Source: a virus. From it: DNA of 34,594 nt. The position numbers and the translations under genes are program-made. A model generated the notes under the pieces. That model did not search any database. It was not told where the DNA came from and saw only the letters and a program-made list of their open reading frames with translations. This document shows, piece by piece, positions 9,671 to 29,753 of this stretch. The DNA is taken from positions 1-34,594 of IMG/VR virus record IMGVR_UViG_2162886007_000001; one strand, given 5' to 3'. Positions within the stretch are counted from its first letter, which is position 1, and the number at the start of each line of letters is the position of its first letter.

Positions 9671-9691
9671 CGGGTTCCCGACTATTTCTGC
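9671..9691 (-). promoter_or_regulatory. Late-region repeated motif, copy A (before tail-fibre genes)
   Basis: On the minus strand this reads AAATAGTCGGGAACCCG with flanking GCAG. The 17-base plus-strand string CGGGTTCCCGACTATTT is identical at 25389-25405. It contains the Rz1 stop codon and ends 18 bases before the tail-fibre ATG. Candidate promoter or activator site. Confidence 0.6.
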
Positions 9692-9939
9692 CGATGCTCG
9701 TCCAGGCACTCGGCCGTGTGAGCCCGCTTGTTCTCGCTGTCCTCATAGGCTCCAACAGCGCCGACGTAGGCCGCAGCCCAAGGCTTCCATTCAGCGACGT
9801 TCGGCGGAGCTGGCGGCCTCAGGGCAATCGCTCGTTCGCTGCACCCTGCAGGCGGCACGTAGCGCACGTTCGTGGGCCTCACGAGCCATGCGCAGGACGT
9901 GAGCAGTAGAGTCAGGATCAGAGTAAGCAGCAGTCGCAT
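9682..9939 (-). CDS. Rz1-like outer-membrane spanin lipoprotein
   Basis: 85 residues starting at the ATG at 9939, wholly different in frame from Rz but overlapping its 3' part, the classic embedded or overlapping Rz1 arrangement. The N-terminus MRLLLTLILTLLLTSC is a lipoprotein signal with lipobox LTSC, giving an acylated Cys16. A proline-rich stretch (VPPAGC, RPPAPPN) follows, also typical of Rz1. With Rz it spans the periplasm and fuses inner and outer membranes in the last step of lysis. Confidence 0.85.
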   Translation of the reverse strand: MRLLLTLILTLLLTSCAWLVRPTNVRYVPPAGCSERAIALRPPAPPNVAEWKPWAAAYVGAVGAYEDSENKRAHTAECLDEHRQK

Positions 9940-10180
9940 TGATGGCCTCCACCGCCTTGACGGTGCGTTCTCGGGTTTCATGTGTGTCCAGGTCGACCGC
10001 ATCCGCTGTGTCGCGGCTGATCTGAACGCTGGTGCTGGTGGCCTTCACATCCGCGCGAAGCGACTTGTTTACTGCCGCCATGTCCTCATCTGCGCGGCCT
10101 TTCAGGTAGCAACCGCCGATGATGGACAGCAGCACGATCACGACGGCGATCTGCACTGCCTGTTTTGGGGTAAGGATCAT
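9791..10180 (-). CDS. Rz-like inner-membrane spanin
   Basis: 129 residues. An N-terminal membrane anchor (about 10-25, AVQIAVVIVLLSIIGGCY) is followed by a charged periplasmic helical domain with coiled-coil character, ending in two cysteines. The start overlaps the endolysin stop by four bases (ATGA). It forms the spanin complex with the overlapping Rz1 lipoprotein. Confidence 0.85.
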   Translation of the reverse strand: MILTPKQAVQIAVVIVLLSIIGGCYLKGRADEDMAAVNKSLRADVKATSTSVQISRDTADAVDLDTHETRERTVKAVEAINATAAYSDPDSTAHVLRMAREAHERALRAACRVQRTSDCPEAASSAERR

Positions 10181-10725
10181 TGGATGGTTCCTCTACAGGT
10201 CATCATTTCCCATTGCCTGCGGGCGGGAATCCCGCCGCAAGCGCCCTTCCATTGAGGGAGTGCGCAATCCCGCTTCACGCCGTTGACCTTCACGTATCGC
10301 CATTTCCAGATTTCATCGCATGCAGCAGTGCGCTCACCCGCGTTGAGCCGGCGGGCAGCCGTGCTTGAGCAAAAGGCATTGGTCCCGACGTTGTAGGCAA
10401 AGTGTCCCCATGCCTTGACTTCGTGAAACTGGAAGTCGCCCCGAACGCACTGCCCCATGTGGCCAAGCATGGTTTGCACATACACCGTCTCCAGCCTTGT
10501 GCACTCCGCATCCGTGTAACGCCTCCCCTTCACTACGGCAGAGCCGGTGATGCCGGCGCACGCGGTCAGGATCCCGGCTGAGTCGTAATAGGGGACGTAC
10601 CGCCGACCTTCGTGCGCGGGATCGTTCTGGCCAAGCGCGGCCACCAACGCCAGGACCAGCGCAGCAGGTGCAGCAGCAAAGCCGAACTTTCGGCCTCGAC
10701 CGCCGTCCTGGGTATCAGCCGCCAC
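10177..10725 (-). CDS. SAR endolysin, GH24 (lambdoid P21/P1-type lysozyme)
   Basis: 182 residues, GTG start. The catalytic triad of T4/P1-type lysozymes is present with the expected spacing: Glu39 in AHEGRR, Asp48 in PYYDS and Thr54 in GILTACAGIT. Residues 15-32 (GFAAAPAALVLALVAALG) form a weakly hydrophobic, Ala/Gly-rich signal-anchor-release segment. The enzyme would therefore be exported by the Sec system, tethered inactive, and released on membrane depolarisation. Several cysteines near the catalytic site could mediate the disulphide switching known in this class. It overlaps the holin stop by 11 bases. Confidence 0.93.
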   Translation of the reverse strand: MAADTQDGGRGRKFGFAAAPAALVLALVAALGQNDPAHEGRRYVPYYDSAGILTACAGITGSAVVKGRRYTDAECTRLETVYVQTMLGHMGQCVRGDFQFHEVKAWGHFAYNVGTNAFCSSTAARRLNAGERTAACDEIWKWRYVKVNGVKRDCALPQWKGACGGIPARRQWEMMTCRGTIQ

Positions 10726-10966
10726 GGCGGAACACCCAAGCAGCTACTCGCCGGACCGTTGCCCAGCGCGCGCGCCCCCATTGCGTCCAGTCGCCCCAGT
10801 TCTTCACCACCACTGAGAAAGCCTGGAGCAGAGTGAACAGGATGGTACAGATGAGTGCGATATCGCTAAGCGTGTAGCCTGGGGTGTAAGTCCCCGCAGT
10901 GACGCCAGCGGCCGGCGCCACCTTTGCCACCGCCATTGCGACATCCTGGGTAATGGTCTCTTTCAT
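10715..10966 (-). CDS. Holin (pinholin-like), small membrane protein
   Basis: 83 residues from the ATG at 10966. One strong membrane helix (about 33-56, SDIALICTILFTLLQAFSVVV) is preceded by a weakly hydrophobic Ala/Val stretch (AMAVAKVAPAAGVTAG) that could be a second helix, and followed by a basic C-terminus (RARWATVRRVAAWVFRR). It immediately precedes the SAR endolysin, the arrangement in which the holin only needs to depolarise the membrane. Copy D of the late motif lies about 85 bases upstream, inside the terminase gene. Confidence 0.8.
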   Translation of the reverse strand: MKETITQDVAMAVAKVAPAAGVTAGTYTPGYTLSDIALICTILFTLLQAFSVVVKNWGDWTQWGRARWATVRRVAAWVFRRGG

Positions 10967-10988
10967 CGAAGCTCCGAACGGTTGGCGT

Positions 10989-12653
10989 TCAGCGCTCGAA
11001 TGGAACCTCGAAGACTCCAGCGCTGGTCCCCCAATGTTCGCGGTCCGGGACGTGCGGATTCCCGACAATTTTGTGGATCCGCTCCGGCGTGCTGCTCAGG
11101 GCCCCTGCGCCTGCGTCCAAGAGGTCATCCGGCTGATTGGCGACGTTTGCCTTCCAGTCCTTTGCCTGATCCCAGAACGCCCCCCTCAGCACGTCCACGT
11201 GGCCCCATAGCTGGCCATTGGACTTGAGCAGCGGTTCCCATGCCTCAAGGATCCGTTTGTTCTTATTGACTGAGGAAGTCACCTCTTTGACCCCGCACCG
11301 GAGCCGGCGCTGCTTCAAGGCAGCCTTGAGGGACGCTGGCGCAAATCCACCGATCCCGTTGGTTTCGACCGTGATGCTGGTGATTCCGAACTCATCCACC
11401 AAATCGCACAGTTGCCAGACCTGGCCCCCAATGATTCTCATGCCGTCATCGGTAGTCTCCAGCACCTCACCCGTCAGCTGGGCAATGCGATGCAAGTACC
11501 TGCGCCCGTATATGTCCTGCAGCACCAAGGCCGCAGCCGAGATATCGGAGCGGAGCTTTCCGCTGGATGGATCCCAGCGGATGGCGCCGCCGGCAATCTG
11601 GATGGAGCCGAGGAACATGGCCGTCTCACCGTTCGCCTTGCGGATGACCGGCTCATCCTCATAGGGGACGATCCGGTTGGGATCGAGGCGGACCTCGGTG
11701 ATTGGTTTGGCGTGCAGCTGATACTGAGAGTCCCACTCGCCAATCGTGCGCGTCTGCTGCCGGCGTAGCTGCATCTCCTCACGGTCGAATCGCTCTGGCC
11801 AAGCCGATCCCGCATAGCAGTCGATCAGCGCGCCGTTCGGGTTGTCGAGAAGAAGGACGGTTCCCTCAAGCCTGTAGTCCACGCCTTCGAGCAAAAGACG
11901 GGCGGTTTCGCCAATGCCCATGAACACATATTCAGGGCGGAACCCTACGTCATGCCTGCCGCGCTCTGCCTTCTCAATTCGGTATTCCTGCTGGAACATG
12001 CGGACCACCATGCTGACAGCGCCCTGCCTCTTCACGTCCTCATAGATGGAGTCGTGGGTGTGCGGCGTGCCGATGTAGAGTTTTGGGGCCCCAGGTGTAG
12101 CGATGTGAACTTGCTCACCCAGGCGGAACCGCAGCTTCTCGCGCGCCTCAGGTGTGCCAATGTTCCCAGGGACTTCGATATCGTCGTTCTGGATGAAGTC
12201 GGCGCGAGAGCTGGTTGTGTTCGAGAGGATGCCTCGCGCGAACATGCTGGCGTTGCGGGCGTCGTTTTCCATTGCTCCTTTCACCCACCACTGCTCCACG
12301 GTCCCTATTCCTGCCGGCAGCAGACCGCTTGTGAGAGGGTGATTCCTCAGCACGTTCTGCGTACCTCGACTGGTCTTGAGTGCGGTCCCGTCTGCTTCTG
12401 ACTGGTGAAGGATTCGGGTGAGACTCCAGCAGTAGTAGATCCAGGCGTTGAACACCTCAAGGATCGTTGACTTGGCGTGACCTCGCGGCAGCATCAACAG
12501 GATCAGCGGGTTGGCTCCGACCCATGCATGTTCAAGGAACAGGCACACCCTGACGTGGAGGTCAGGAATCTCCCACCCCATGCGATTCGCCCACATGGCG
12601 AAGAAGGCGAGGAAGGAGATGCGCGGTGTGACTGTGCGACGATCAGGCAGCAT
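10989..12653 (-). CDS. Terminase large subunit
   Basis: 554 residues from the ATG at 12653; a longer reading would need a TTG at 12674. The Walker A motif PRGHAKST is at residues 56-63, preceded by the hydrophobic strand LILLM. An ATPase core follows, and the C-terminal half looks like the RNase H-like nuclease (ITVETNGIGG strand-turn region). It packages DNA into the prohead through the portal. The small subunit gene overlaps its start by 11 bases. The terminase genes sit after the internal virion genes and before lysis, as in T7-like phages, where gp19 is also late. Confidence 0.92.
   Translation of the reverse strand: MLPDRRTVTPRISFLAFFAMWANRMGWEIPDLHVRVCLFLEHAWVGANPLILLMLPRGHAKSTILEVFNAWIYYCWSLTRILHQSEADGTALKTSRGTQNVLRNHPLTSGLLPAGIGTVEQWWVKGAMENDARNASMFARGILSNTTSSRADFIQNDDIEVPGNIGTPEAREKLRFRLGEQVHIATPGAPKLYIGTPHTHDSIYEDVKRQGAVSMVVRMFQQEYRIEKAERGRHDVGFRPEYVFMGIGETARLLLEGVDYRLEGTVLLLDNPNGALIDCYAGSAWPERFDREEMQLRRQQTRTIGEWDSQYQLHAKPITEVRLDPNRIVPYEDEPVIRKANGETAMFLGSIQIAGGAIRWDPSSGKLRSDISAAALVLQDIYGRRYLHRIAQLTGEVLETTDDGMRIIGGQVWQLCDLVDEFGITSITVETNGIGGFAPASLKAALKQRRLRCGVKEVTSSVNKNKRILEAWEPLLKSNGQLWGHVDVLRGAFWDQAKDWKANVANQPDDLLDAGAGALSSTPERIHKIVGNPHVPDREHWGTSAGVFEVPFER
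11051..11070 (-). promoter_or_regulatory. Late-region repeated motif, copy D (inside terminase, before holin)
   Basis: The 16-base plus-strand string CGTGCGGATTCCCGAC is shared exactly with 29731-29746. Here it lies within the last codons of the large terminase (IVGNPHVPDR), so coding constraint and chance cannot be excluded. It is about 85 bases upstream of the holin start. Confidence 0.4.
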
Positions 12654-12966
12654 TCTTCGCCCCGATGCGCTCAAGGAGCTTGCTTGCCTCGCGCTCTGCG
12701 GCCTTGATTTCGGCCTCAGGGTCGGGATCCTTGTCGCCGCCTCCAGGCGCTCCTGTCTCCCTCAGCAACTGCTGTAGGCGGCACAGCAGGGCAACCGATT
12801 GAACAGCGGTCTTCCTGCACCATGCGGCGTCGCCACGCTCGTCCTTGCTCATGTCGCACAGGGGCTTGTCGGATGCCGTCCAGTTGGACGGGTCAGCGTC
12901 ACGGATAGCCACCTCGGCCAGGGATTCGGACACATCCTGCAGGCGCTTGCGCTGGTCGTCTCTCAT
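12643..12966 (-). CDS. Putative terminase small subunit
   Basis: 107 residues, helical and charged (RKRLQDVSESLAEVA, then TAVQSVALLCRLQQLLRE, then a C-terminal EIKAAEREASKLLERI). The assignment rests on position and size: it directly precedes and overlaps the large terminase and has the all-helical, acidic-linker composition of small subunits. The ATG at 12966 overlaps the preceding stop (TGATG) behind GGAGAGG. No HTH signature is obvious. Confidence 0.7.
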   Translation of the reverse strand: MRDDQRKRLQDVSESLAEVAIRDADPSNWTASDKPLCDMSKDERGDAAWCRKTAVQSVALLCRLQQLLRETGAPGGGDKDPDPEAEIKAAEREASKLLERIGAKNAA

Positions 12967-15461
12967 CACACCTCTCCTGCCATCGCGGTCAGGTCGGGAG
13001 CCCGGTCGGGCACTGGCTCACCCGGCTCCCACCAGTATTTCTGGCCGAACTCGCGCTCGCTACGCTGCTTCATCTTGCGCAGATAGCCGGGGGAGAAATA
13101 CTCCTGCAGCTGGTGGAAAATCAGATGGTCAAGGGCGCCCTTCGCATACCAGAGGTTCGCGCCTGGGGTGTTCCCCTTGACGAATCGAACAGCCTCCGCC
13201 CCCGCATGCGTGTCCTTCCCCTGGACTGCCTCCATGATGTTGCCCTGAGTCAGTTTCAGTACGTCCTCCGCAAGTCCCGCGACCGGGCCAAGCGCAGCGG
13301 CAAAGGGGGATTGGCCATAGCGCGACGACTCAGAGAATAGGAAGTCGCCATAGAGGCCGAGTGACCCTCCCTTAAGCATCGCTGCTATACCGAAACGGGG
13401 GTCTGTCATGTCGCGCGGATCACGACCAGAAAGCATGTCGCTGATCTGCATGGACACTGCTCCCATGACAGTGGTCGAGGCAATCAGCGTGGCGAGATAG
13501 GCAGCCCGCCCAGTCCCCGTGGGCATCGACCAGCCTCGCTGAATATGACGGGTCATCATCGCGATGGGGAACGACTTGAACAGGAAGAACGACCGGGTCA
13601 GCTCGCCCTTCCAGGTGCCGCGCTGTAGGCCGGTCATCATCATTGCCCGCTCTTTCGCGCCGGGCTCAATGACCGCAACGTCGGTCTCCTCCAGAACTAC
13701 GCCAAGCAGGCGGGTAGCTGCGTTCTCGCGCAACGTTGCTGGGTCACCCAAGCCGGCAAGCTTGGCGTCGGGGATGCGATAGATTGAGTCTGGCGTCAGC
13801 ATTGTGTCGTTACCGCCGCCCCAATCTTCCAGCTGGGCCAGCCTCCACACTGAATAGTCGGTGTCAGTGATCCCCTTCGACAGGAGTATCCGGTGGTCAG
13901 CAGCGTCGATTGCCTTGAGGTCGGCGTGGTCCCGCACCACCGATCCCATTGCGTGCATGAAGGTGACCCCATAGGCGCGTTTGCGCGCCTCGGTAAGCGC
14001 GTTCAGGCCACTGGCTCGCAGAGTTACGCCAGCCAGCTTGTTGGAGAACGAGCTTGCCAGGCTGTCATTGCCGAATCTATTCAACGACGAAAGCAGAGTG
14101 TTCATAGCCAACCCTGCCCGCAGCGCCATGCGCTTTTCCATCTTGTTCGCTGGGTTGAGGGCTGCCAGCTCGTTCGAGAACAGACGCATCGCCGGAAGGT
14201 TGTTAACGTGCGCCGACAGGTACATGGTTGCGTCGTCTGAGAACGACGTGATGACCGCAGACCCCAAGCGGGAAGCGGTCATCCAGCTGCGTAGGGTGTC
14301 GAAGGTCTCAGCCAGCCAGCGCGAGGCCACAGGCTGCGTCCTGCCGGCCACTTGGTTGTAAAGGTTCTCGCTTGTGATCGCGCGCTTCTCAAGTCGACCG
14401 GCTGCGTTGGGATCAAGGAGGGCTTGCTCCTGTAGCGCCTTGTCGCTGAACAGCTTGAACGCGAGGTCAGGATTCGGGCCAAAGGTCTCCACAAGGGCAA
14501 TGTCCTTGGAGACTCCGGAAATATGCCCGGTCAGAACTTCATAAAGCGAGCGTTCGCCGTAGTTCTGTTGGTACTGCAGGTAGGCGTCAGCGTCCTTGAA
14601 GTGCACCTGCCGGGACTCGTTGCCTCGGTTTGCGCGCATACCTCCGCCCATTCCACCTCGGCCCGGCTGCAGCTTGTTGATGCCGCCAGTAGCGATGCTC
14701 TCCCAGGCATGGCCGAGGAATTCCCCAACCTCAACGTCAGTCATGCGGCTGCCGTCCTCGTTCATGTACCGCTTGCGGTCGAGGAGAGGCAGCGTGTCCT
14801 GAATCCACTGCACACGGCCTGCTTTGGCCACCAGAGACTGGGAATGGTGATGCGGCATGCCCCAGTCATCGAGTTGGCCAACGTCGCCACCTGAGCGGTT
14901 GAAGCGCTCTCTCAGCGAGCCAGTGATGCTATGGAACACCTTCGCGCCCGCTGCTGCATCCGCGTCGCCCGTCTTCATCCCATGCAGCTCCCGGACAACG
15001 TTGCTGACGCCTTCGGCGTTCTCAATCAACCCGAAGAACTTGGGGTTCGTGGCCTCCAGTGTGTCGAGCATCTGCCGGAGGGCATCACGCTCGATGGCGC
15101 GGGCTCGGGTCTCCACAGACAGGGCGTTACCTTTGCCATCCGCATGGAACGCAACCATTCGGTCCAGTCCGTCGAACTTGTCCGCGAACTGTTTGAGGTG
15201 GTTCTCCACTCGGTCGTGAGCGAGGATGGTCAAAGCGATCCGCTGCTTCTTCTTCCCGGCTTCGCGCACCAGCTCTAGCGCGGCCTCCTTCGCCGCCTCC
15301 ATGAGGCGCTGGTCGGGTGACCTCGCGAGCTGTGCTTGCGGATCCCGAACGGAGTTCTGCCGCATGTGTCGACTGATTCGAGCCTCAATGCCCTGAATCT
15401 CGGCGGCATTGAGCTTGCGCCCAATTGCTGCGGTTACGGCGTCGATGCATTCGCTTCTCAT
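12966..15461 (-). CDS. Large internal virion protein (T7 gp16-like position)
   Basis: 831 residues, the last and largest of three consecutive internal virion genes. The N-terminal half is strongly helical and charged. Further on are membrane-active segments, for instance around YLATLIASTTVMGAVSMQI, which could form part of the DNA ejection channel. The C-terminus is polar and aromatic (FGQKYWWEPGEPVP). In T7-like phages this position holds gp16, which is ejected into the host envelope ahead of the DNA. Here the transglycosylase is on the neighbouring protein instead. Its ATG overlaps the preceding stop in TGATG. Confidence 0.75.
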   Translation of the reverse strand: MRSECIDAVTAAIGRKLNAAEIQGIEARISRHMRQNSVRDPQAQLARSPDQRLMEAAKEAALELVREAGKKKQRIALTILAHDRVENHLKQFADKFDGLDRMVAFHADGKGNALSVETRARAIERDALRQMLDTLEATNPKFFGLIENAEGVSNVVRELHGMKTGDADAAAGAKVFHSITGSLRERFNRSGGDVGQLDDWGMPHHHSQSLVAKAGRVQWIQDTLPLLDRKRYMNEDGSRMTDVEVGEFLGHAWESIATGGINKLQPGRGGMGGGMRANRGNESRQVHFKDADAYLQYQQNYGERSLYEVLTGHISGVSKDIALVETFGPNPDLAFKLFSDKALQEQALLDPNAAGRLEKRAITSENLYNQVAGRTQPVASRWLAETFDTLRSWMTASRLGSAVITSFSDDATMYLSAHVNNLPAMRLFSNELAALNPANKMEKRMALRAGLAMNTLLSSLNRFGNDSLASSFSNKLAGVTLRASGLNALTEARKRAYGVTFMHAMGSVVRDHADLKAIDAADHRILLSKGITDTDYSVWRLAQLEDWGGGNDTMLTPDSIYRIPDAKLAGLGDPATLRENAATRLLGVVLEETDVAVIEPGAKERAMMMTGLQRGTWKGELTRSFFLFKSFPIAMMTRHIQRGWSMPTGTGRAAYLATLIASTTVMGAVSMQISDMLSGRDPRDMTDPRFGIAAMLKGGSLGLYGDFLFSESSRYGQSPFAAALGPVAGLAEDVLKLTQGNIMEAVQGKDTHAGAEAVRFVKGNTPGANLWYAKGALDHLIFHQLQEYFSPGYLRKMKQRSEREFGQKYWWEPGEPVPDRAPDLTAMAGEV

Positions 15462-17857
15462 CAGGCAAACCTCAGTGCACAGGTAACGGCGGCGGCGAAG
15501 CCACGGGAATCAATCTCTGCTTGCGCAATCTCGGCGTCGGCACGGGCAATCGCTTCGGCGGCGGTCACCACCGTTCCGTCGTCAAGCGTGACCTGCATGT
15601 CTGGGTTGGCCGCAACGGCTTCAAGCGCAGCCTGCTGCGACAACTCCGCACTGTTCTCCTGAGCCACCGGCTGCGCTCTTGCCATTGCCTGCGGCTCAGC
15701 GTTGGCGCCAGCAACCGCAGCTGACGGTGCCTCAATGCCGGCCGGGCTGGATGCACGCGCTGGCCCAATTTCCAAGGAACCCGGCGTCATCCAGTCCGGC
15801 CCCTCACTGCGCCCGCCCTGGCGGCCTACGTTGCGCGCAGGGATATCAATGGGAGGCGTAGCCCCCGAATCACGGAGAACCTGCCGTGGCGTCTCCCGCA
15901 TCCGGTCTCGTCCGCTGAGACGGTCAGCCAGCGCGATCAGGTCAGGGTCGCTGTCGATACGCTCCAGGCGCGACCGCAACTGCTTGCCCACAGCGTCGTA
16001 CCCAGTTGCCGTCGCCGACTTCTCTAGGGCCTGTCGGATCTCCACACGGCGTGCAGTCAGCGCGTCGAATTCCTCACGGCTGATTCGCTCTCTAGGATCT
16101 GCCGGGACGATGTTCTCCCGAGCCAGTTGTTCCTGCCGGCGAATAACGTCCACCAATGCGGCGTCTTCCTGCCGGTACTCTGAAACCTGCTCGGGGGTCA
16201 GTCGGTCCTGCTTTGAAAGCTCGTCCAGGGTGGTCAGACGCTGCTCAACGATGGCCGCCGCCTCAGTTGGCGTTGTCGGCGGCAGCTCCACCGAAGCGGC
16301 ACCGGCTGGAGCTACCTCAGCTGCGACCATGCGGACCACTGCGGGCGCCTCGACACCAGCTCGGCGGGCCCGTTCGTCCCAGTTAGCAATGGCCTCCCCT
16401 TTCGTCTTCCCCTTGAGATACGGGTTTGCATCGAGCTGCGCCTTGCTCAGGATGCGAGACATGGGCGTTTCGTCTGCAGCCCTGGCGAACGAAACGCCTC
16501 GCTCCTCTCCGAAGTGATGGGCGGCATAAAGGTTGTGGGCCGTTGCATCCATGCCGGCTGATTCGAGGGCGGCAGTGTTCTTTGCGTCCAGCGCACGCGC
16601 CATCTCGCCAGACTTTGCCGGATCCTTTCGCGCGGCCAGCAGCTCGTTATCATTCAGGCCCCTGGCCCAACTGGGCTTGGCCTGGGCGACGATGCTGCGC
16701 CACGTACCGGCGGTGAACTGATCGATACCGGTGGCGCTGCTGGACGCATTGGTTGCATCAGCACGGAACCCCGACTCGAGAGCCCGCCGATACGCCTCAT
16801 ATCGAGCCGGTCCTAAATCGTAGTTGGCGGCCATCTCACTTGGCACACCAGCTCGTGCGAACGGCAGGAACTCAGCCGCCTGGATCGACTCCGCGACACT
16901 TACCGGCTCGCCGCGCAGTACCGAACGCATCGCCGACGCCAGGGCGTTCTGGTGTGCAGCGCTCGAAGCCTCGTCTCGGGGCAGGCCAGGAGCGGTATCC
17001 ACTTGCATGTGCTTGGCATTGGAAACCGTCAGCACAGCGTCCCGGTCCGCACTGGTTGCCCTTGGCCCGGCCTGCAGGTGGGCGATACCACCGAATACGG
17101 CGCCAGTAAGTACGTCGACCGCTCGCGCCTCAAAGTTGAGGGGGCTGTATGCCTTGGCCAGCTCTGCGTTGCCAGAAGATTCAAGCACTGCCTGCTGTGC
17201 TGCTGCCGTGGCCGTGCCAACTGCCAGGTTGGCGGCTGCGCCGGAGCCGACGCGCTGCAGCAAGGTTGTTCCGAAGCTGGCCGGGATCTTGAAGCCGAGC
17301 ATGGTTGCGCCGGCCGAGACCGCACCGAACGCTACTGCGGCGCCGGACCCGACCCCCTGCTTGACCAAGCCGGCGGGCGCCTCAATTCCCTCGTTGCCGG
17401 CCAGTAGCGCAGGATTCCCGCCCGTCACTGCCAGCGGGACCGCGATCTGAGCGAGCCCACCCGCGATGCGTCCAGCCGTTCCGGTCTGCGCCGGGTCCGG
17501 AGCCCAGTATTCGGTTGCGCCTTGGCCAACGTCCTCAACGACATTGCGGAAGTACCAGTCCTGTCCGCTGACCTCCGGCGCATCGGTGTTGACCTTGATC
17601 CCGTACTTTCGAGCAAATGCCGCTGACTCAGGCGTGCGGAACGACGCAAGATAGTCATCGCGGGCCCCGACTACCGGGGACGCAGCCAGGGCCAGTGTCG
17701 TGAACGTCCTGGACCCACCCTGCATGACGCCCCCGCCAACTGCCGAGAGGAAGCCGGAGAACGTCCCTGGCGTCACCTTCGACAGGTCGAGTGGATTCCG
17801 TGCCACCTGCTCGTTCAGGGCGAGCCCGCCCTGCTCATCAATATCAAATACGCTCAT
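15461..17857 (-). CDS. Internal virion protein with lytic transglycosylase domain
   Basis: 798 residues. The region around residues 350-480 looks like a soluble lytic transglycosylase: catalytic Glu at about 361 in RALESGF, followed by the family's SATGIDQFTAGTW and a helical continuation (NDNELLAARKDPAKS). It would cut peptidoglycan locally during DNA ejection. The N-terminal third is Ala/Gly-rich and hydrophobic in stretches (LAQIAVPLAVTGG, AAVAFGAVSAGATMLGF). The C-terminal third is a long charged helical region. It is coupled to the preceding gene by ATGA and to the next by TGATG. Confidence 0.82.
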   Translation of the reverse strand: MSVFDIDEQGGLALNEQVARNPLDLSKVTPGTFSGFLSAVGGGVMQGGSRTFTTLALAASPVVGARDDYLASFRTPESAAFARKYGIKVNTDAPEVSGQDWYFRNVVEDVGQGATEYWAPDPAQTGTAGRIAGGLAQIAVPLAVTGGNPALLAGNEGIEAPAGLVKQGVGSGAAVAFGAVSAGATMLGFKIPASFGTTLLQRVGSGAAANLAVGTATAAAQQAVLESSGNAELAKAYSPLNFEARAVDVLTGAVFGGIAHLQAGPRATSADRDAVLTVSNAKHMQVDTAPGLPRDEASSAAHQNALASAMRSVLRGEPVSVAESIQAAEFLPFARAGVPSEMAANYDLGPARYEAYRRALESGFRADATNASSSATGIDQFTAGTWRSIVAQAKPSWARGLNDNELLAARKDPAKSGEMARALDAKNTAALESAGMDATAHNLYAAHHFGEERGVSFARAADETPMSRILSKAQLDANPYLKGKTKGEAIANWDERARRAGVEAPAVVRMVAAEVAPAGAASVELPPTTPTEAAAIVEQRLTTLDELSKQDRLTPEQVSEYRQEDAALVDVIRRQEQLARENIVPADPRERISREEFDALTARRVEIRQALEKSATATGYDAVGKQLRSRLERIDSDPDLIALADRLSGRDRMRETPRQVLRDSGATPPIDIPARNVGRQGGRSEGPDWMTPGSLEIGPARASSPAGIEAPSAAVAGANAEPQAMARAQPVAQENSAELSQQAALEAVAANPDMQVTLDDGTVVTAAEAIARADAEIAQAEIDSRGFAAAVTCALRFA

Positions 17858-20434: not shown

Positions 20435-20890
20435 TCAATCCCCCCTGTATTCGAGATAGGCCCCGGTGCGAGCGAACCCGATGGATTCATAGACGCGGAC
20501 ACTCCGCTCCAAGGCGACGCCAGTGGTAATGCCGGCCTGAATCAGGTCAGCCTTTGCGCTCTTGCACCACTCGACATACGCGCGTAGGAGTTGCACGCCG
20601 GACCGGCCGCCCCTGCTCTCTGGGCGGATGTAGATCCCGTATTCGCCTGCAACGCGGGCATCGGCAAACCAGGTGGCATCGCAATAGCCTGCGGCCATGC
20701 CGATCAACACGCCTTCCTCCTCGATGACGATCAAGCACCCCTCGTCCTGGCGCCCTGCGATCAATGAGAGAAACAGATTCGCGAGCTTGTCGGGGGCAAA
20801 GGGGAAGCGCGCATAGGTCGACTCCGCGTGCATGGCCTCGGCCAACACGAGCAGCGCGCCGATATCGGCATTGGAAGCGGAGCGGATCAT
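20435..20890 (-). CDS. GNAT-family N-acetyltransferase
   Basis: 151 residues with the GNAT fold order: N-terminal MIRSASNADIGALLVLAEAM, a central strand-loop (LIVIEEEGVLIGMAAGY), the acetyl-CoA-binding region (YIRPESRGGRSGVQLLRAYVEW, with R-G-x-S-G), and a C-terminal strand (VYESIGFARTGAYLEY). It sits between tail tube B and the gp14-like gene, where T7 carries gp13, a virion assembly protein. It may be a packaged or assembly-related acetyltransferase; the substrate is unknown. It is coupled to the tail gene by ATGA. Confidence 0.85.
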   Translation of the reverse strand: MIRSASNADIGALLVLAEAMHAESTYARFPFAPDKLANLFLSLIAGRQDEGCLIVIEEEGVLIGMAAGYCDATWFADARVAGEYGIYIRPESRGGRSGVQLLRAYVEWCKSAKADLIQAGITTGVALERSVRVYESIGFARTGAYLEYRGD

Positions 20891-23100: not shown

Positions 23101-23717
23101 CGCGACCACCCCCAACCACTGGCGCCACCGAGCCGCGCCAGCATCAATGGGAAGTCGCCCAGCGTCTCCGGCGGCTCGTCCTGCCCATCGACCGACCTGG
23201 CCTGCTGCATCACCGCGCGCAGCTCAGCGGTCTTGGTCTCGATCATCGCCGCCGACTTGGTGATGGGATACGCCATGCGGACGGCCATCGTTGCTGTCAT
23301 CGCATCGACCAACAGGGAATCCCACTGGTGTTCGTCCACGTCTGCGATGTAGGTCAGCGGGAAGACAACGGCATCGCTCAGCAGGTAGCGCCCTTCCGCG
23401 CGGAAATCGATGCGCTCATTCCTTTCCGGGTTGCCAACCGCCAGGGTGCGCAGCCAGTCGCCGGGGAGCAGGAAGCGATGGGCATAGCCAAACTCCGGCG
23501 CCTGGGCGTCGGGGGAGAGCTGCACGCGCCTGATCGCGCAGTTCCACGGATGGCTGCGCAGTACCGCCTTGCGGACCTGCGGGTACAGGCCAGCGGCAAG
23601 CTTGGCCCTGTCCAGCTGCGCCGCGCCACCAGCCTCATCAAAGCTGGAGATAGGCTGAGCGCCCAGTGAGAGCAGCGCGTTAGAACAGATGGTTACTGCG
23701 TTCGCGGTTTCCGTCAT
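23097..23717 (-). CDS. Tail tubular protein A (T7 gp11-like)
   Basis: 206 residues. It opens TETANAVTICSNALLSLGAQPI, followed by YPQVRKAVLRSHPWNCAIRR, the characteristic motif set of the gp11 head-to-tail adaptor family. It forms the dodecameric ring between portal and nozzle. A strong GC hairpin separates it from the cement protein gene upstream. Confidence 0.9.
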   Translation of the reverse strand: MTETANAVTICSNALLSLGAQPISSFDEAGGAAQLDRAKLAAGLYPQVRKAVLRSHPWNCAIRRVQLSPDAQAPEFGYAHRFLLPGDWLRTLAVGNPERNERIDFRAEGRYLLSDAVVFPLTYIADVDEHQWDSLLVDAMTATMAVRMAYPITKSAAMIETKTAELRAVMQQARSVDGQDEPPETLGDFPLMLARLGGASGWGWSR

Positions 23718-23738
23718 CGCGGCTGGCCTCTTAGAACA

Positions 23739-23759
23739 CCGGGGGCGCGCGGCCCCCGG
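23739..23759 (-). terminator. Strong hairpin between head and tail genes (partial terminator or processing site)
   Basis: An 8-bp perfect stem CCGGGGGC / GCCCCCGG with a 5-base loop is extended on the outside by AACACC / GGTGTT pairing. It is followed on the minus strand by TCTAAG with no T run. It lies after the capsid and cement genes, where an attenuator would raise capsid expression over tail proteins. Confidence 0.6.
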
Positions 23760-23795
23760 CGGGTGTTACATGCGATATGGGAATCCCCGTATCGA

Positions 23796-24314
23796 TCAGT
23801 TACCGTCGATGAAGTGGCCCTTGAGCGCCACGTTGCCGGCGGCGGTCGCACCTGCGGTCAGGGTTGCGGCCACGTCGTACCAAACGCCCGGATCCGACGG
23901 CAGGCCCAGCAGGCGCCACAGCGGCCATTCCAGCTTGTCCACGGTGATGAGGCCCGATTCACGCAGGACGTTGGTGCCGTCCAGGGCGGCGGAAAGATCC
24001 TGCGCCGAGGCGAAGAAGTCGGCATCGACAACCGCGCCGGCGTTGCGGGTCGGAATGTCGTAGAGGCCGATATCCGCCGCTGCACCGGTGATCGCGCTGC
24101 AGGAGGCCAGCACCGAGCCGACACGCCAGCCCGACATGACGGAGAAGAAGCGCAGCACGCTGGCGGTGCTGTCGCCGTTGGCCACGGCAACCACGCCGAT
24201 GGATTCTTTGACGCGGCCGGTTGCGACCTTCGTGGAAGCGAGCTGCGAGGCGCCGAGAGTGGGAGCGGAATCGCGGGCGGTGATCGCGGCGCTACCCTTG
24301 GTGACTACTGCCAT
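23796..24314 (-). CDS. Capsid cement/decoration protein (Bbp16-like)
   Basis: 172 residues, Ala/Gly/Val-rich and beta-like, with no charged-helix regions. It lies directly after the major capsid gene, where BPP-1-type phages encode the Bbp16 cement protein. It carries the motif set GRVKESIGVVAVANGDSTAS, VLRFFSVMSG and IGLYDI that I associate with that family. It probably binds capsid three-fold sites and stabilises the expanded shell. A ribosome-binding site AGAGG precedes the start. Confidence 0.72.
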   Translation of the reverse strand: MAVVTKGSAAITARDSAPTLGASQLASTKVATGRVKESIGVVAVANGDSTASVLRFFSVMSGWRVGSVLASCSAITGAAADIGLYDIPTRNAGAVVDADFFASAQDLSAALDGTNVLRESGLITVDKLEWPLWRLLGLPSDPGVWYDVAATLTAGATAAGNVALKGHFIDGN

Positions 24315-24374
24315 GATGAATACCTCTTGATGGTGTGGGTAGGTGGGCGGTAACCGTGGCTACCGCCCGGCCGA

Positions 24375-25238
24375 TCAGGTTTCCTGCACGTCGATCTGGA
24401 CAACCTTCTCTTCCTCGACGCGGGTCGCGCCGATGGCCTGCTTGGCGTAAACGCGGACGTTGAAGCCCTTGCCCGGATCCTCGCCAACTCGCGTGGTGGT
24501 GTCCTTGCCGATACCGAGGGCAACACCAGACTTGGCCCAGGCGAACAGGGAGCGCGTGTTGCCCACCTTCGGAAGGCGCTCGGACGGGATCCAGGTGAAG
24601 CCCATCCACTTGCCGACCACGTCGCCGGTCTCCAGGAACTTGGCGGCCATGAAGTCCGCCGAGGTCAGCTGGGTGTCGGCCAGAATGTCGGCGGCGGCCT
24701 GAGCGCTGTAGGCCATGAACAGTTCCTCACCGCCGATGGCGTCAGCCTCGTTGCGACGGAAGATGGTCTTCGCCTGGATGATCTTCGCCTTGCTGAGGCC
24801 GGTAGCGTTGACCGCGATCTTCTGCGAGGCCGGCAGCGCAATGGTGCTCGTGGTGCTGCGCGAGTTGCCGCCCAACGCCGCGATGACAACGTCATCCTTG
24901 GTGCGGTTCATGGCGTTGACCATGGCCTTGACGTAGTCGCTGGTCGGGTCGACCAGCATGCGGACCTTGTCCAGGTCATCGATCATGTCGCCATCTTCCC
25001 AGTCGAACAGGTCGATGAAGCGGGTGGAATGTGCCTGATCGTTGATCGGGGTATCAGCGTGGCGCACCAGACGGCGCTGAGCGGTACGCTGGCCCAGCCG
25101 GTTCACCGACTTGGACATGCCGACGATGTTGGGTTCGAGGGTCACCGCACTCTGAAAGCGCGATTCGGTCTGCTGGGCGACGTGCTTGAAGTTGTCTGCG
25201 AACTGCTGCACGAACGCTTCGGTAATGAACTGGCTCAT
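24375..25238 (-). CDS. Major capsid protein
   Basis: 287 residues. A helical N-terminus (FITEAFVQQFADNFKHVAQQ) is followed by RTAQRRLVRHADTP, then DWEDGDMIDDLDKVRMLVDPTSDYVKAM, and AAKFLETGDVVGKWMGF. This matches the small BPP-1-like (Bbp17-type) capsid proteins with the HK97 fold. The gene is preceded by a leader of about 150 bases, a terminator and copy B of the late motif, suggesting its own strong promoter. High expression is expected. Confidence 0.88.
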   Translation of the reverse strand: MSQFITEAFVQQFADNFKHVAQQTESRFQSAVTLEPNIVGMSKSVNRLGQRTAQRRLVRHADTPINDQAHSTRFIDLFDWEDGDMIDDLDKVRMLVDPTSDYVKAMVNAMNRTKDDVVIAALGGNSRSTTSTIALPASQKIAVNATGLSKAKIIQAKTIFRRNEADAIGGEELFMAYSAQAAADILADTQLTSADFMAAKFLETGDVVGKWMGFTWIPSERLPKVGNTRSLFAWAKSGVALGIGKDTTTRVGEDPGKGFNVRVYAKQAIGATRVEEEKVVQIDVQET

Positions 25239-25388
25239 GGAGACTCCGAAGTTGTGGATGGGGTGTTCGTGCCTGCTCGGTTATCCCTTGCGGGGCCGTG
25301 CGGTTCGCGTGGCAACGTGCGCGGGCAGAGCTGGTTATCCGAGAGCCACCTCGGGCCAGATGCACGCAGTTTTGAAGGGATGCCCAGA

Positions 25389-25407
25389 CGGGTTCCCGAC
25401 TATTTGC
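25389..25407 (-). promoter_or_regulatory. Late-region repeated motif, copy B (before major capsid gene)
   Basis: Minus-strand reading GCAAATAGTCGGGAACCCG. It lies immediately downstream of an intrinsic terminator and about 150 bases before the capsid ATG. Locally GTTCCCG and CGGGAAC also make an inverted repeat with an 8-base spacer. A terminator followed by this motif and a leader is what a separate capsid promoter would look like. Confidence 0.65.
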
Positions 25408-25413
25408 GGGAAC

Positions 25414-25439
25414 GAAAAAGCCCCGCACTTGGCGGGGCT
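25414..25439 (-). terminator. Rho-independent terminator upstream of the capsid gene
   Basis: On the minus strand AGCCCCGC, loop CAAGT, GCGGGGCT, then TTTTT. The loop is identical to that of the terminator after the repressor gene. It ends the scaffold-region transcript just before the capsid leader. Confidence 0.9.
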
Positions 25440-25461
25440 CTTGTCGGCTATCGGTGGTCCA

Positions 25462-25608
25462 TCACCACCAGCGGATGGCATCCAGCAGCATCGAGATGCC
25501 GACGATGAAGAAGGCCCAAGCAGCAACGCGCCATGCCTTGGCCCTGAGCATTGCGACACGCTCAGCCCCTTCGGGGGACATTCGGCCAGCGATCCTTACC
25601 CGAATCAC
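25462..25608 (-). CDS. Small single-pass membrane protein, 48 aa
   Basis: The GTG at 25608 overlaps the stop of the preceding gene as GTGA, and the stop lies 23 bases before the terminator stem. The protein has a basic N-terminal half (Arg at several positions, MSPEGAERVAML) and one membrane helix at about 28-44 (VAAWAFFIVGISMLL), ending AIRWW. Coupling and placement make it a credible gene. No family recognised; it may be a virion or envelope-associated microprotein. Confidence 0.6.
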   Translation of the reverse strand: MIRVRIAGRMSPEGAERVAMLRAKAWRVAAWAFFIVGISMLLDAIRWW

Positions 25609-25982
25609 AGGCGAATCTCCGTGGGTGCCATGCCCAGCGCGTGCGCGCCCAGCACTACCGCACCGTCAGCCTGTTCGGCCTTCGCCCACAGCAGCTTGCG
25701 CAGACTTTCAATTGCCGCCGCTCGAGCGTACCCGCGACCGCGCACCGCATCGAACTGATCCGCCACCATGAAAGTCGCCGACTGTGTCACGGTACTACCG
25801 TCTCTCAGCAGCAGAACGCAGACGAAAATCCGGTGAAGTGGAGAGTTATTGCCCCCACCAACCGCGTCTGCATGTGCTCTCCAGGTGATGTGGTCGTGCC
25901 CGTGAGCACCCTCGGCCGCTGTGAAGTAGAACTCCTGGATCACCTCGGCCTCTGCCGTCTCTTTTGCAGCCATGGTTCTCAT
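25605..25982 (-). CDS. Hypothetical protein in the head region, 125 aa
   Basis: AAGGAG lies 8 bases before the ATG. The protein is mixed alpha/beta, with a histidine-rich loop (GAHGHDHITW) and a C-terminal helix (AAIESLRKLLWAKAE). It lies between the scaffold gene and the 48-residue membrane protein, upstream of the capsid. No known family recognised; a minor head protein or assembly factor is possible from position only. Confidence 0.6.
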   Translation of the reverse strand: MRTMAAKETAEAEVIQEFYFTAAEGAHGHDHITWRAHADAVGGGNNSPLHRIFVCVLLLRDGSTVTQSATFMVADQFDAVRGRGYARAAAIESLRKLLWAKAEQADGAVVLGAHALGMAPTEIRL

Positions 25983-25994
25983 AGTCGTTGCTCC

Positions 25995-26819
25995 TTAGCG
26001 AACTGCTGCCGCGCCGAGCTGGCGCGAGTTGGCGCCATAGCGCCGCTGGTACAGGTCGGACAGCTCGCGCACCTTCTGATCGTGCTGCGGGTGCTTACCG
26101 TCCATGTACGCCGGATCGGCCTTGATGGCGGCGATCTTGCCTTCCCAGTCCTGGGTGGCGACCGCATTGCCATTGATCGGGGTGTCCTCGTTCAGTTCGG
26201 CACCAACGGCAGCCGCGAAGCGCAGGAAGTCCGGATCGTCTCCGTACTTCTCCTGCAGGCGCTGCAGGCTGCCAGCGCCATCGCCCTCGGCGGCGAATGC
26301 CTTCACTGCGCGCATCGCTTGGCCCAGGTTCTTCTGCAGGGCCTGGTCGTCGCCCCAAACCTTGCCCAGCTCCGCGCGGGCCTCCTCCTGGCTGATCGCA
26401 GTGTTGCCTGCCAACAGGTCCGGCGCGAATCCGAAGTATTCCTTGAGGAAGAAGTTCACATGCTCCTGCGGGATGCCTGCCTCATGGGCGCGGCCGAGAA
26501 TGCCCTTGAACAGGGGATCAGACTTGACCTCATCGACGTTGACGCCATCAGGCATGCCATCGATCACGTATTCCTCTGCCGTCTTCGGAACCGTGCCCAC
26601 TGGACGAGACTTCTCCAACTCGGCATAGCTGGCAGCCAGCTTCCGGGACGATGCCTCAAGGTCCAGGTCACTGCCGCCCTCCTTCACCGTGCGGAACTTC
26701 TCGGGCAGCCAATCATTTCCGGCGCCCTGGTTCAGCAGCGACGGGGCACCGCCCTGATCGCCCTGGCCACCGTCGCCTCCACCCTGACCGCCGTTGTTCT
26801 GGTTGCTGGTATCACTCAT
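25995..26819 (-). CDS. Capsid assembly scaffolding protein
   Basis: 274 residues with the usual scaffold composition: a low-complexity Gly/Gln/Asn/Asp N-terminus, then LPEKFRTVKEGGSDLDLEAS, an acidic helical middle (PLFKGILGRAHEAGIPQEHV, AISQEEARAELGKVWGDD), and a C-terminal helical and basic end (RELSDLYQRRYGANSRQ). It lies between the portal block and the capsid, as expected. It co-assembles with capsid protein and is lost at maturation. Confidence 0.85.
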   Translation of the reverse strand: MSDTSNQNNGGQGGGDGGQGDQGGAPSLLNQGAGNDWLPEKFRTVKEGGSDLDLEASSRKLAASYAELEKSRPVGTVPKTAEEYVIDGMPDGVNVDEVKSDPLFKGILGRAHEAGIPQEHVNFFLKEYFGFAPDLLAGNTAISQEEARAELGKVWGDDQALQKNLGQAMRAVKAFAAEGDGAGSLQRLQEKYGDDPDFLRFAAAVGAELNEDTPINGNAVATQDWEGKIAAIKADPAYMDGKHPQHDQKVRELSDLYQRRYGANSRQLGAAAVR

Positions 26820-27045
26820 CGCTGTCTACTCCATTCGCAAGGTTGCACTGCCTGACAATGTGATCCACGACGGAGCGCGCTCCCTCGCGGTGGAAGGTGT
26901 TGAGGACGGCATCAATCCCGCCCGAAAGTTGCGCCGGCCGGTGGAACTTCTTCACCAAGTCCTCAAGGATCAAGGCGCCCTCCGCATGGTTCTCAAAGAC
27001 GCGGGCGTACATTTCCGGCGTCACCTGGGTTGCTCTTTCGCTCAT
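26812..27045 (-). CDS. Bbp19-like small protein, 77 aa
   Basis: A short helical protein (YARVFENHAEGALILEDLVKKFH, then ARSVVDHIVRQ) of the type found between portal and scaffold genes in BPP-1-like and T7-like phages (Bbp19 family, recognised by pattern and position). It overlaps the portal stop by four bases and the scaffold start by eight. Function unknown; probably virion assembly. Confidence 0.68.
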   Translation of the reverse strand: MSERATQVTPEMYARVFENHAEGALILEDLVKKFHRPAQLSGGIDAVLNTFHREGARSVVDHIVRQCNLANGVDSDE

Positions 27046-28655
27046 GCGGCTGCCGCCTGTTGGGTCTGTGCCTGGGCGGACATAGCGATGGCCTGCTCGC
27101 CCATCTGCTGCTGCTTGGCCTGCTCAGCTGCCTGCGTGCGCGCATCCAGCTTGGCCTGCATCTCGGTGTCGCTGAGCATGACCTTGCTCGGTACGCCCAA
27201 GCCGTCTGCCGCGATCTCAAGCGCCGCGTCATCGTTGAGCCGATCAAAGATGGCCATGTCACCGCCCTTGGCCTGGGAAATGAGGCCGGCGGTTTCGTAT
27301 AGGCGCTGGGTTGCTGTGACCTCTTCCAAGCGCTGGGCGCGCGCCATCGGCGATACGTATCGGACCGAGTAGTCCCGGCCAGCCAGCGACTCAGGCGGCT
27401 CGCCAAGGATGCCGGCGCGGTATGCGATGCCAAAGCACCGCTCGATCAACGGGCGCAGGTACTCAGCCTGCAGGCGGCCGTAGATCGGGCCCAGCAGCTG
27501 GCGAATCATCTCCACGCGAACATGCACTTCGGTGGCCGTCATCGCCGGTCCGTCCTGCGGCTGGAGCTGGTCCGCCATCAGAATTTTGCGGATCGATGCC
27601 TTGAGATCGTTGACCATGAAGTCAGCGAGCTGGAAGTTCGCCCCCGTCTGGAGGGGCTTGATGGCGTCGGTACTGCTGGCGATCAGGATCTTGCGCGCGC
27701 CCAGCTTGGCCGTGCGCGGGTTGAACACGCCGTCATCCTCAGCGACCCACATGCCGCCCACAGCAACGTCTGCCGATGCGAGCTGCAGGGCCTTGAGTTC
27801 GTTTAGTACGCGGATATCGGGAAGCGCATCGAACACCGGGCCCACGCCATAGCTCGTGTCCGGGATCCGCTGCCAGCGCGGTGCGATAACCGGGAACTCG
27901 TGATAGCCCGATTCCCGCACAAGCTGCTTGCCCTTCGACTCGACCACGTAGGAAGCGAACGGGAGATTCTTGGCCATCCTGGCGCCCACCACGTATGGCG
28001 TGCGCGGCTCAATGGCGTGGATGAACGAGACCAGCTCGTCCGGCTTCTCTCGCGCGAGCTTCTGCGTGCCCTCGCTCAGGTTCTCCAATCCGAATGTCTC
28101 GGCGGCGGTCCTGGCGGGCATGGAGTGCTCGCGATAGCAGGTATCCACCAACCCGTCGCGTCGGCTGCTCGTGATGTAGACGCCAGCGATAGGCCACTGC
28201 TCGAAGGAGTAGCCTCCGCGCTCACGATCCTCATCCACATAAAGGGCGAACCACCCTGCCGCGACGGTGTCGAGGCACGCCTCATAACCCTCTGCGTCGA
28301 AGTTGGATTGATGGATGTTGAGCCAGATGGTCTCTGCCGCGTTGTCGAGATAGCGCTTGTCGTCCGGAGTCTCGCCGTCCACGTCCAGCTCAAACCAACG
28401 GGAGTTGGCCGGGGTCAGGCCGGACATGATCGAGGACGCCAGCACCTGGCTTGCCTGGGTGCCGGTCGAGTCCTGTATCCGCGCCTTCTGGTTCTGTGCC
28501 TGCTGGGCATCAACAACGTTGCCATTGAACCCATGCGCCCGCAGCGGGAACGTCAACTCGAAGCAGTCGCGCCAGACCTGCTCATGCACCTGGCGCTTGC
28601 CCTTGAGGTCGCTCAGCCGCTTGCAGATTCGGGCAGCGTTCTCGGCGCTCATCAC
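27042..28655 (-). CDS. Portal protein (head-tail connector)
   Basis: 537 residues. Family hallmarks include an N-terminal helix (NAARICKRLSDLKGKRQVHE), FDAEGYEACLDTVAAGWFALYVDED, RWQRIPDTSYGVGPVFDALPDI and MTATEVHVRVEMIRQLLGPI. The C-terminus is a Gln/Ala-rich helix (QAEQAKQQQMGEQAIAMSAQ), as in T7 gp8-type connectors. It forms the dodecameric ring through which DNA is packaged. It overlaps both neighbouring genes in ATGA junctions. Confidence 0.92.
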   Translation of the reverse strand: MMSAENAARICKRLSDLKGKRQVHEQVWRDCFELTFPLRAHGFNGNVVDAQQAQNQKARIQDSTGTQASQVLASSIMSGLTPANSRWFELDVDGETPDDKRYLDNAAETIWLNIHQSNFDAEGYEACLDTVAAGWFALYVDEDRERGGYSFEQWPIAGVYITSSRRDGLVDTCYREHSMPARTAAETFGLENLSEGTQKLAREKPDELVSFIHAIEPRTPYVVGARMAKNLPFASYVVESKGKQLVRESGYHEFPVIAPRWQRIPDTSYGVGPVFDALPDIRVLNELKALQLASADVAVGGMWVAEDDGVFNPRTAKLGARKILIASSTDAIKPLQTGANFQLADFMVNDLKASIRKILMADQLQPQDGPAMTATEVHVRVEMIRQLLGPIYGRLQAEYLRPLIERCFGIAYRAGILGEPPESLAGRDYSVRYVSPMARAQRLEEVTATQRLYETAGLISQAKGGDMAIFDRLNDDAALEIAADGLGVPSKVMLSDTEMQAKLDARTQAAEQAKQQQMGEQAIAMSAQAQTQQAAAA

Positions 28656-28879
28656 ATGCCCCCGAGGGTTGTGCGGCCCTGGGCGCTGGCCAGCAGCGAG
28701 GGGGCGCTGCCAGTTGTCAGGCCATCGGCGCCGAGGGTGAGCAAGCTACTATCCCGGCGGCGGCGGCGACGCGAGGCGAGCGCGAGGTTCGCCTCAGATG
28801 CAGCGGTCGCCTCAGCGGCTCGCTGCTCTGCCACCAAGTCGCGCTCGACCACCTTTGGCTGCTTCTTCGATCCACACAT
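28652..28879 (-). CDS. Small MCGSK protein, 75 aa
   Basis: Opens MCGSK and carries a block of six arginines (ASRRRRRRDSS) before a C-terminal PSLLASAQG. The upstream gene has the same N-terminus and a matching C-terminal arrangement (RRRSS, then PSSLLASG), so the two look like a tandem duplication. Small proteins beginning MCG next to portals are common in short-tailed phages; they are presumed minor virion proteins. It is coupled to the portal by ATGA. Confidence 0.7.
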   Translation of the reverse strand: MCGSKKQPKVVERDLVAEQRAAEATAASEANLALASRRRRRRDSSLLTLGADGLTTGSAPSLLASAQGRTTLGGM

Positions 28880-28883
28880 GAGG

Positions 28884-29234
28884 TCAGCTCCTATTTCCGC
28901 TGGCCAGCAGCGACGATGGGGTGGCGCCCTGGCCCATCAGGCTTACCGCGAAGGAGCTGCGGCGGCGCTTGAGGCGTTCGTTGAGGGATTGGGCAGTGGC
29001 TTCACTGGCGGCACGCGCGGCGGCGGCCTGGGCTTTCGGTAGGACGTTCTTGGCGTCCTCCGCTGCCAGCCGCTCGGCCTCCTTCTCAGCAGCGATGCGC
29101 GAACGCTCCTTGCGCAGGTCGCCAGTCGGGTCGCCGATTGCTGTCTTGGTGATGCCCAGCGGGTCCGCGTACTTGGCGTTCTTGCCAGTCAGCAGGCCGG
29201 CGGGGTCCAGGATCTTGGCCTTGCTCCCGCACAT
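28884..29234 (-). CDS. MCGSK protein, 116 aa (paralogue of the next gene)
   Basis: N-terminal MCGSKAKILDP, then a charged helix (RKERSRIAAEKEAERLAAEDA), an Ala-rich helix, an arginine patch (RLKRRRSS) and C-terminal PSSLLASG. It is longer than its neighbour through an insertion of about 40 residues in the N-terminal half. It lies four bases before the neighbour's start. Possible head-completion or minor virion protein; role not established. Confidence 0.7.
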   Translation of the reverse strand: MCGSKAKILDPAGLLTGKNAKYADPLGITKTAIGDPTGDLRKERSRIAAEKEAERLAAEDAKNVLPKAQAAAARAASEATAQSLNERLKRRRSSFAVSLMGQGATPSSLLASGNRS

Positions 29235-29237
29235 GGC

Positions 29238-29684
29238 TTAGCCCCTCGGGATCTGGTTCGGCTTGGGTTCGGGCACAACCCAACCCGCCTCGGTCAGCAC
29301 TGCACGGGGCTGCGTGTCGACTCGAACAGGCTCAGCAACGGCGTCCGCATCGCCATGGCTATCAGCCGGCGCGCTGGCACTCTCGGTCGCGCTGTCGCTG
29401 CCCGCAGCCGCGAGGGCTTCATCGATGGCCGCCAGGACGCTCACACGCTTCTTGCCGTCAGTCTCGATGGCGTGCAGCAGAAGCAGCTCGTCATGGTTCA
29501 TCGTCGGCAGCGCGTCCACCACATCCGGCACGTTGAGCGAGGCGATGGCGGTCAGTTCTGCTCGCAGCGCTTCGTCGGCGGCAGTGACGCCGGCATCGGT
29601 GGTCGCAGCGGCGGCGTCGGTCACGGTATCGGGCGGGGCGATGGACTCGCCGGGGACGCGGGGCTTGAGTTCGGGCGCGGGCAT
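29238..29684 (-). CDS. Hypothetical acidic protein at the head of the structural block, 148 aa
   Basis: Start at the ATG at 29684, 7 bases after TGGAG; an upstream in-frame start would run through the regulatory motif at 29734. The protein is Ala/Asp/Glu/Thr-rich and probably partly disordered, with one compact helical part (LRAELTAIASLNVPDVVDAL, then HDELLLLHAIETDGKKRVSVLAAIDEAL) and a C-terminal VLTEAGWVVPEPKPNQIP. It is the first gene after late motif copy C. No family recognised. Confidence 0.6.
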   Translation of the reverse strand: MPAPELKPRVPGESIAPPDTVTDAAAATTDAGVTAADEALRAELTAIASLNVPDVVDALPTMNHDELLLLHAIETDGKKRVSVLAAIDEALAAAGSDSATESASAPADSHGDADAVAEPVRVDTQPRAVLTEAGWVVPEPKPNQIPRG

Positions 29685-29733
29685 GGTTGGCTCCAGCACT
29701 GAGGATGTGCGGCCAGTCTGCGCACCGCCCCGT

Positions 29734-29753
29734 GCGGATTCCCGACTATCTGC
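29734..29753 (-). promoter_or_regulatory. Late-region repeated motif, copy C (before the head gene block)
   Basis: Minus-strand reading GCAGATAGTCGGGAATCCGC, 50 bases before the first structural gene and downstream of the small HTH gene. It shares ATAGTCGGGAA with copies A and B, and the 16-base plus-strand string CGTGCGGATTCCCGAC (29731-29746) with copy D. The remaining intergenic sequence (29685-29922) holds no gene that I can see. Confidence 0.65.

Follow-up and report, generated by a model that had tools for sequence, protein, structure and literature searches.

How does a temperate phage with T7-like particle genes switch on its late genes? The question is raised by the 34,594-nucleotide (nt) stretch analyzed here (IMG/VR virus record IMGVR_UViG_2162886007_000001, positions 1 to 34,594; hereafter, the window). 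PHROG matches identify T7-like virion genes in it (portal, capsid, tail tube, internal virion proteins, and terminase), all of the late genes lie on the minus strand, and the phage also codes for a DnaB-like helicase, a replication protein, and an integrase. The original prediction, made from the letters of the window alone, described a motif present in four copies ahead of late genes and proposed that it is a late promoter or activator site requiring the host polymerase and a phage factor. Our analysis indicates, with a probability of roughly 0.8, that these motifs, here called boxes, are the binding sites of a phage-encoded activator and form activator-dependent late promoters for the host sigma70 polymerase, the activator being an 80-amino-acid (aa) helix-turn-helix (HTH) protein.

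The core of the box, ATAGTCGGGAA, occurs in the window as three exact minus-strand copies (9675-9685, 25393-25403, and 29739-29749) and a fourth minus-strand copy with one mismatch (11059-11069). All four predicted copies were confirmed in one orientation, on the late-gene strand, and the sequence bears out the 17 identical bases reported for copies A and B and the 16 for copies C and D. The predicted positions held for the cores, and the complete 20-bp boxes run over different coordinates (Table 1). The copy near 11051 had been regarded as a loose variant; it is instead a full member of the set, inside the 3' end of the terminase open reading frame (ORF). The short core by itself proves little because the bare 11-mer is not enriched in the window at two mismatches (5 found versus 4.4 expected), and the test therefore needed a longer motif and related phages. 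A 20-bp matrix whose training set excluded the window and its nearest relative recovered exactly the four sites, on the sense strand only, with scores of 20 to 33 bits. As a control, 200 dinucleotide shuffles gave a single match of at least 8 bits, with a maximum of 9.3.

The box is conserved in related phages. An exact 16-mer search of a viral collection returned 52 stretches, many of them on contigs that independently matched the capsid protein, and all 32 occurrences of the core ATAGTCGGGAAYCC across 80 capsid-matched loci were on the late strand. For a closer comparison we used 20 longer related records together with the window (21 genomes), in which the matrix matched 91 sense sites and no antisense site. 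Box-bearing genomes carry two to six boxes, usually four or five, and share their map positions. One position is between the HTH gene and the portal operon, another precedes the capsid gene, and a third, within the terminase gene at its 3' end, is followed by lysis or fibre genes. Most Pseudomonas-type relatives have an extra box before the p831 internal virion gene. When 92 loci were instead collected by the HTH protein, a box followed the HTH gene by no more than 2.5 kb in 82 of them, and the boxes again lay on the sense strand only (197 versus 0). Nor are copies scattered through host chromosomes, since all 13 exact matches in three whole host genomes fall in prophage regions. Among 199 Pseudomonas genomes, clusters of at least three same-strand boxes were present in 6, all of them among the 9 with the HTH gene, and in none of the other 190 (Fisher p=1e-9). 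In the same 199 genomes a match to TAGTCGGGAATCCGCC recurs, mostly as a single copy, in many chromosomes that lack the HTH gene; this appears to be conserved chromosomal DNA with no relation to the phages studied here. The Yersinia phages YeP4-6, which are inducible (PMC6548840), carry the HTH gene, and YeP5, the one examined, has four boxes. Searches of BcepC6B, BPP-1, Piluca, TPWB-05, vB_EcoM_APEC, and the first 20 kb of T7 yielded no matching box. Taken together, strand bias, placement, and conservation support the predicted late promoter or activator site.

An ungapped alignment of 78 nonredundant sites, drawn from 93 in all, revealed the anatomy of these promoters. The 20-bp consensus, AAATAGTCGGGAAACCGACA, contains the dyad GTCGG-N4-CCGAC, and 12 nt past the box an A and a T stand four positions apart, as in a sigma70 -10 hexamer (NANNNT). 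This pattern was found at exactly 12 nt in 70 of the 78 nonredundant sites, against a background of 3.6% per offset, and at 11 to 13 nt in 92 of the 93. A TTGACA-like -35 element (4/6 or better at usable spacing) was present in none of the 93 sites versus about 15% expected at random. The center of the dyad lies 20.5 bp upstream of the hexamer, at about -32.5, and both the center and the -10 spacing are constant across divergent phages; in a set of 35 protein/box pairs, dyad pairing was 79% at this one center and at most 42% elsewhere. A phage-specific site thus takes the place of the -35 element, with the -10 kept at a fixed spacing. The original prediction had missed the -10, the dyad, and the probable cognate DNA-binding protein.

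This layout bears on three other ways to read the box. T7-like virion genes and a promoter-sized conserved sequence before the late units might suggest the promoter of a T7-type single-subunit RNA polymerase lying beyond the fragment. The window is open ended and stops in the early region, so a gene missing from it proves little on its own, and the predicted absence of such a polymerase had to be followed into relatives. There, neither the 27 relatives examined nor the complete genome of YeP5 gave a PF00940 match (the T7 control gave E=1e-109), and the bipartite sigma70-like layout also speaks against a T7-type promoter, which we regard as largely refuted and the least probable explanation of all. 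An alternative sigma factor, for example of the extracytoplasmic function (ECF) type and encoded by phage or host, could use the box as its -35, as the GGGAAY core sits near -35 ahead of a conserved downstream element and GGGAAC resembles ECF -35 elements. However, that downstream element has the sigma70 pattern NANNNT, no sigma region 2 was found in 23 records, region-4-like matches are scattered, weak, and not shared, and the dyad changes along with the phage HTH protein, which is not expected of a host sigma factor; we consider this very unlikely. The box could instead act as RNA, in antitermination or translation, given that the consensus is a perfect inverted repeat with a 4-nt loop and GTCGG-GAAA-CCGAC could fold into a hairpin. 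But the loop varies freely (GAAA, GAAC, GATT, and GATC), the arms are short or imperfect in other lineages, and the conserved spacing is to a downstream -10 whose transcript would exclude the box, which leaves a hairpin slightly less probable still than the sigma factor.

The protein that binds the boxes is very probably the 80-aa HTH protein encoded just upstream of the first box (Table 1). Its gene is the only nonvirion gene found in all 21 genomes. Pfam gave no match for the window protein, and among 29 members of its family there were weak matches to HTH_3 in 7 and HTH_23 in 13. Its AlphaFold2 model is confident (predicted local distance difference test score, 89) and all helical, and the closest solved structures are XRE-type proteins at Z 6-8, headed by C.EcoT38I and C.Kpn2I and also including phage repressors such as P22 c2; Foldseek E-values were not significant. 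The model is thus consistent with a four- to five-helix XRE fold. A fold in common does not reveal function, and Z values under 8 arise often. We also considered as regulator the 245-aa ORF upstream of the HTH gene (30181-30918, minus strand) and rejected it, as it had no family or structure match and occurs only in the window and one relative.

We then compared how box and protein vary between viruses. In one relative (G027) the usual box is missing, AGTCCGGAACCGGAAC-type sequences stand at the same three places, and the recognition helix is changed. More divergent phages each have their own box common to their late sites, for example, GTCCGGAACCGGAAC, GTTCAGGAAATCTAAC, GGTCGAGATTCTGACC, or GGTCGAGATTTCGACC, at the same spacing. 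For the 35 protein/box pairs, box distance followed recognition-helix distance (Mantel r=0.74; partial r=0.75 given capsid distance, p=2e-4) and did not follow capsid distance given the protein (r=-0.23), with the reservation that Mantel p-values can be optimistic for related sequences and that only about six independent box types are represented. Because box and protein change together between viruses, the boxes are probably bound by the HTH protein. Visual inspection pairs KQG(A/S) with GTCGG, KQG(M/I) with GTCGA, and, in one lineage, KSG with GCCGG. This recognition-helix/box code is no more than suggestive, since KSG occurs together with a GTCGG box in a Klebsiella prophage. That prophage was held out from model building, and its boxes stand at the four expected places, all sense and all followed by NANNNT at 12 nt; on its own the matrix scored three of these boxes, two at more than 10 bits, whereas the site after the HTH gene came from a pair search.

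If the HTH protein binds the boxes, it might still repress the late promoters, in lysogeny or as an early shutoff, and leave activation to another factor. Repressors commonly bind at the -35 region, which the box overlaps; the protein belongs to a PHROG family annotated "transcriptional repressor," and P22 c2 is among the fold matches. Yet with no usable -35 at any of the 93 sites, a repressor would act on promoters already dead unaided; moreover, a distinct repressor is annotated in the genome of the related phage YeP5, and the HTH gene is located at the late boundary. Because the promoters lack a -35, we favor activation, and repression appears unlikely.

Several observations weigh against activation by the HTH protein at these boxes. 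The repressor label just mentioned is one. Two of the four window sites (A and C) have a spacing of 11 nt rather than 12. Weak -10 hexamers are a further point, and neither the HTH gene nor a box was seen in several relatives represented by short contigs. Copies of the protein with a near-identical helix also occur in integrase-bearing islands without a recognizable box, and on a Pantoea plasmid (L289:17980-18264) an HTH relative is flanked by a LuxR-type regulator and an antitermination gene; the prophage that carries it has a P22-type capsid and no box.

Among known systems, the layout is closest to that of T4 middle promoters and the Mu promoter Pm; these promoters would work like those of MotA and Mor, with a protein from outside both families. 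The T4 MotA box replaces the -35, lies 12 +/-1 bp from a sigma70 -10, and is centered near -30 (PMC2988021). The boxes described here share that spacing and take the same place. MotA boxes differ in being short, without dyad symmetry, and bound by a monomer that needs AsiA, whereas here a dyad of 16-20 bp is paired with an unrelated small HTH protein. In Mu, Mor (PMC4390567) and C (PMC4461284) are dimeric phage activators that act with host sigma70 at a dyad and a -10 without a -35. A dyad replacing the -35 and a retained -10 are found in the present phage family too, but the Mor site is centered at -43.5 rather than about -32.5, and Mor has 129 aa rather than 80. No MotA or Mor family appeared among the Pfam matches of the 29 HTH proteins (E<=0.1).

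Lambda CII is likewise a small phage activator that binds around the -35 of sigma70 promoters; by description it is set apart by its direct repeats and tetramer, in contrast to the inverted repeat seen here. The best structural matches (Z up to 8.0) are restriction-modification controller proteins such as C.EcoT38I and C.Kpn2I, which are small, all-helical HTH dimers that act on dyad operators in their own promoters; one of these controllers, C.Esp1396I, recruits sigma (PMC4041747). They differ from the HTH protein in sequence (identity of 12-14% and no sequence-family match), and the neighbors of the HTH gene are replication and late phage genes, not restriction-modification genes. LUZ100 and T7-like Pseudomonas prophages combine T7-like and temperate features with phage-specific promoters (PMC10134795), as does this phage family. 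In the literature searched, with most subscription journals outside its reach, we found no earlier description of the box or the HTH protein.

We therefore propose the following sequence of events for late activation. The HTH gene follows the replication genes and immediately precedes the first late promoter; its product would bind as a dimer to the dyad, whose center is near -32.5, and so substitute for the absent -35. Bound there, it would contact sigma70 and recruit the host polymerase to the degenerate -10 located 12 bp downstream of the box, and from the predicted start sites the head operon, the capsid/tail operon, the lysis genes, and the tail fibres would be switched on.

Table 1. Boxes, predicted -10 elements, and associated features of the window
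Feature	Coordinates	Strand	Details
Box A, AAATAGTCGGGAACCCGAAC	9668..9687	-	Before tail fibre genes (probable ATG 9622)
-10-like CAGGAT of box A	9651..9656	-	11-nt spacing
Box D, AAATTGTCGGGAATCCGCAC	11052..11071	-	Inside 3' end of terminase large subunit gene; before lysis genes (ATG 10966)
-10-like GAACAT of box D	11034..11039	-	12-nt spacing
Box B, AAATAGTCGGGAACCCGTCT	25386..25405	-	Before major capsid gene (ATG 25238)
-10-like AAAACT of box B	25368..25373	-	12-nt spacing
Box C, AGATAGTCGGGAATCCGCAC	29732..29751	-	Before head operon (next ATG 29684)
-10-like CAGACT of box C	29715..29720	-	11-nt spacing
HTH protein, 80 aa, proposed late activator; recognition segment RAPRSTILGWKQGAEPKH	29923..30165	-	PHROG 16553, E=1.1e-20; just upstream of first box
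Portal/head-tail adaptor	27042..28655	-	PHROG 332, E=5e-148; in unit downstream of box C
Terminator-like hairpin and T-run	25413..25439	-	Just upstream of box B
Major capsid protein	24375..25238	-	PHROG 3437, E=3e-88; downstream of box B
Terminase large subunit	10989..12674	-	PHROG 38, E=4e-71; box D near its 3' end
Tail fibre protein	8075..9622	-	Downstream of box A; probable start

The tail fibre start had been placed at 9652. It is probably the ATG at 9622 instead because 9652 overlaps the predicted -10 of box A; in the ORF read from 9652, PHROG matches begin only around residue 11-12, which fits the later start. A terminator ahead of the box, as at box B, is not general (5 of 93 sites). 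Box B is also overlapped by a second, larger inverted repeat, GTTCCCG-N8-CGGGAAC (25392-25413), which is not found at the other three copies. Adjoining the integrase is a SocA-like Panacea-domain protein (4034-4507, minus strand; PF13274, E=6e-19), which might belong to a toxin-antitoxin or defence system of the prophage.

Relatives of the HTH protein extend beyond the box-bearing phages. Distant ones are encoded between the replication and late genes of Alcaligenes phage Piluca (L268, ~17540-17740, plus strand) and Acinetobacter phage TPWB-05 (L269, ~29330-29520, minus strand), in which no convincing box emerged. Their occurrence there suggests that the regulator is older than the box family. 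Five Pseudomonas loci (L183, L179, L216, L217, and L222; HTH gene at ~10001 or 8856) encode nearly the same recognition helix and lack both the box and T7-like structural genes. An integrase is present in L179 and L183; L183 has a Toprim primase and a DUF927 helicase as well, and it looks like a phage satellite that carries the late activator of its helper.

A broader reading, which we offer tentatively and consider doubtful as a whole, is that this is a new regulator family in which a single 80-aa protein at the -35 footprint redirects sigma70 to all late units. The family would have diverged into several distinct protein/box pairs and been captured by satellite-like islands (with integrase and primase/helicase and without structural genes) that carry the activator of their helper's late genes. 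If correct, our findings would explain the timing of late gene expression in widespread temperate phages that have T7-like particles and no T7 polymerase, and they would name a probable function for a protein family that is now unannotated or labeled as a repressor. The natural activator/promoter pairs, being of differing specificity, would be usable as orthogonal genetic parts, and late operons would become predictable in prophages of Pseudomonas, Stenotrophomonas, Klebsiella, and Yersinia.
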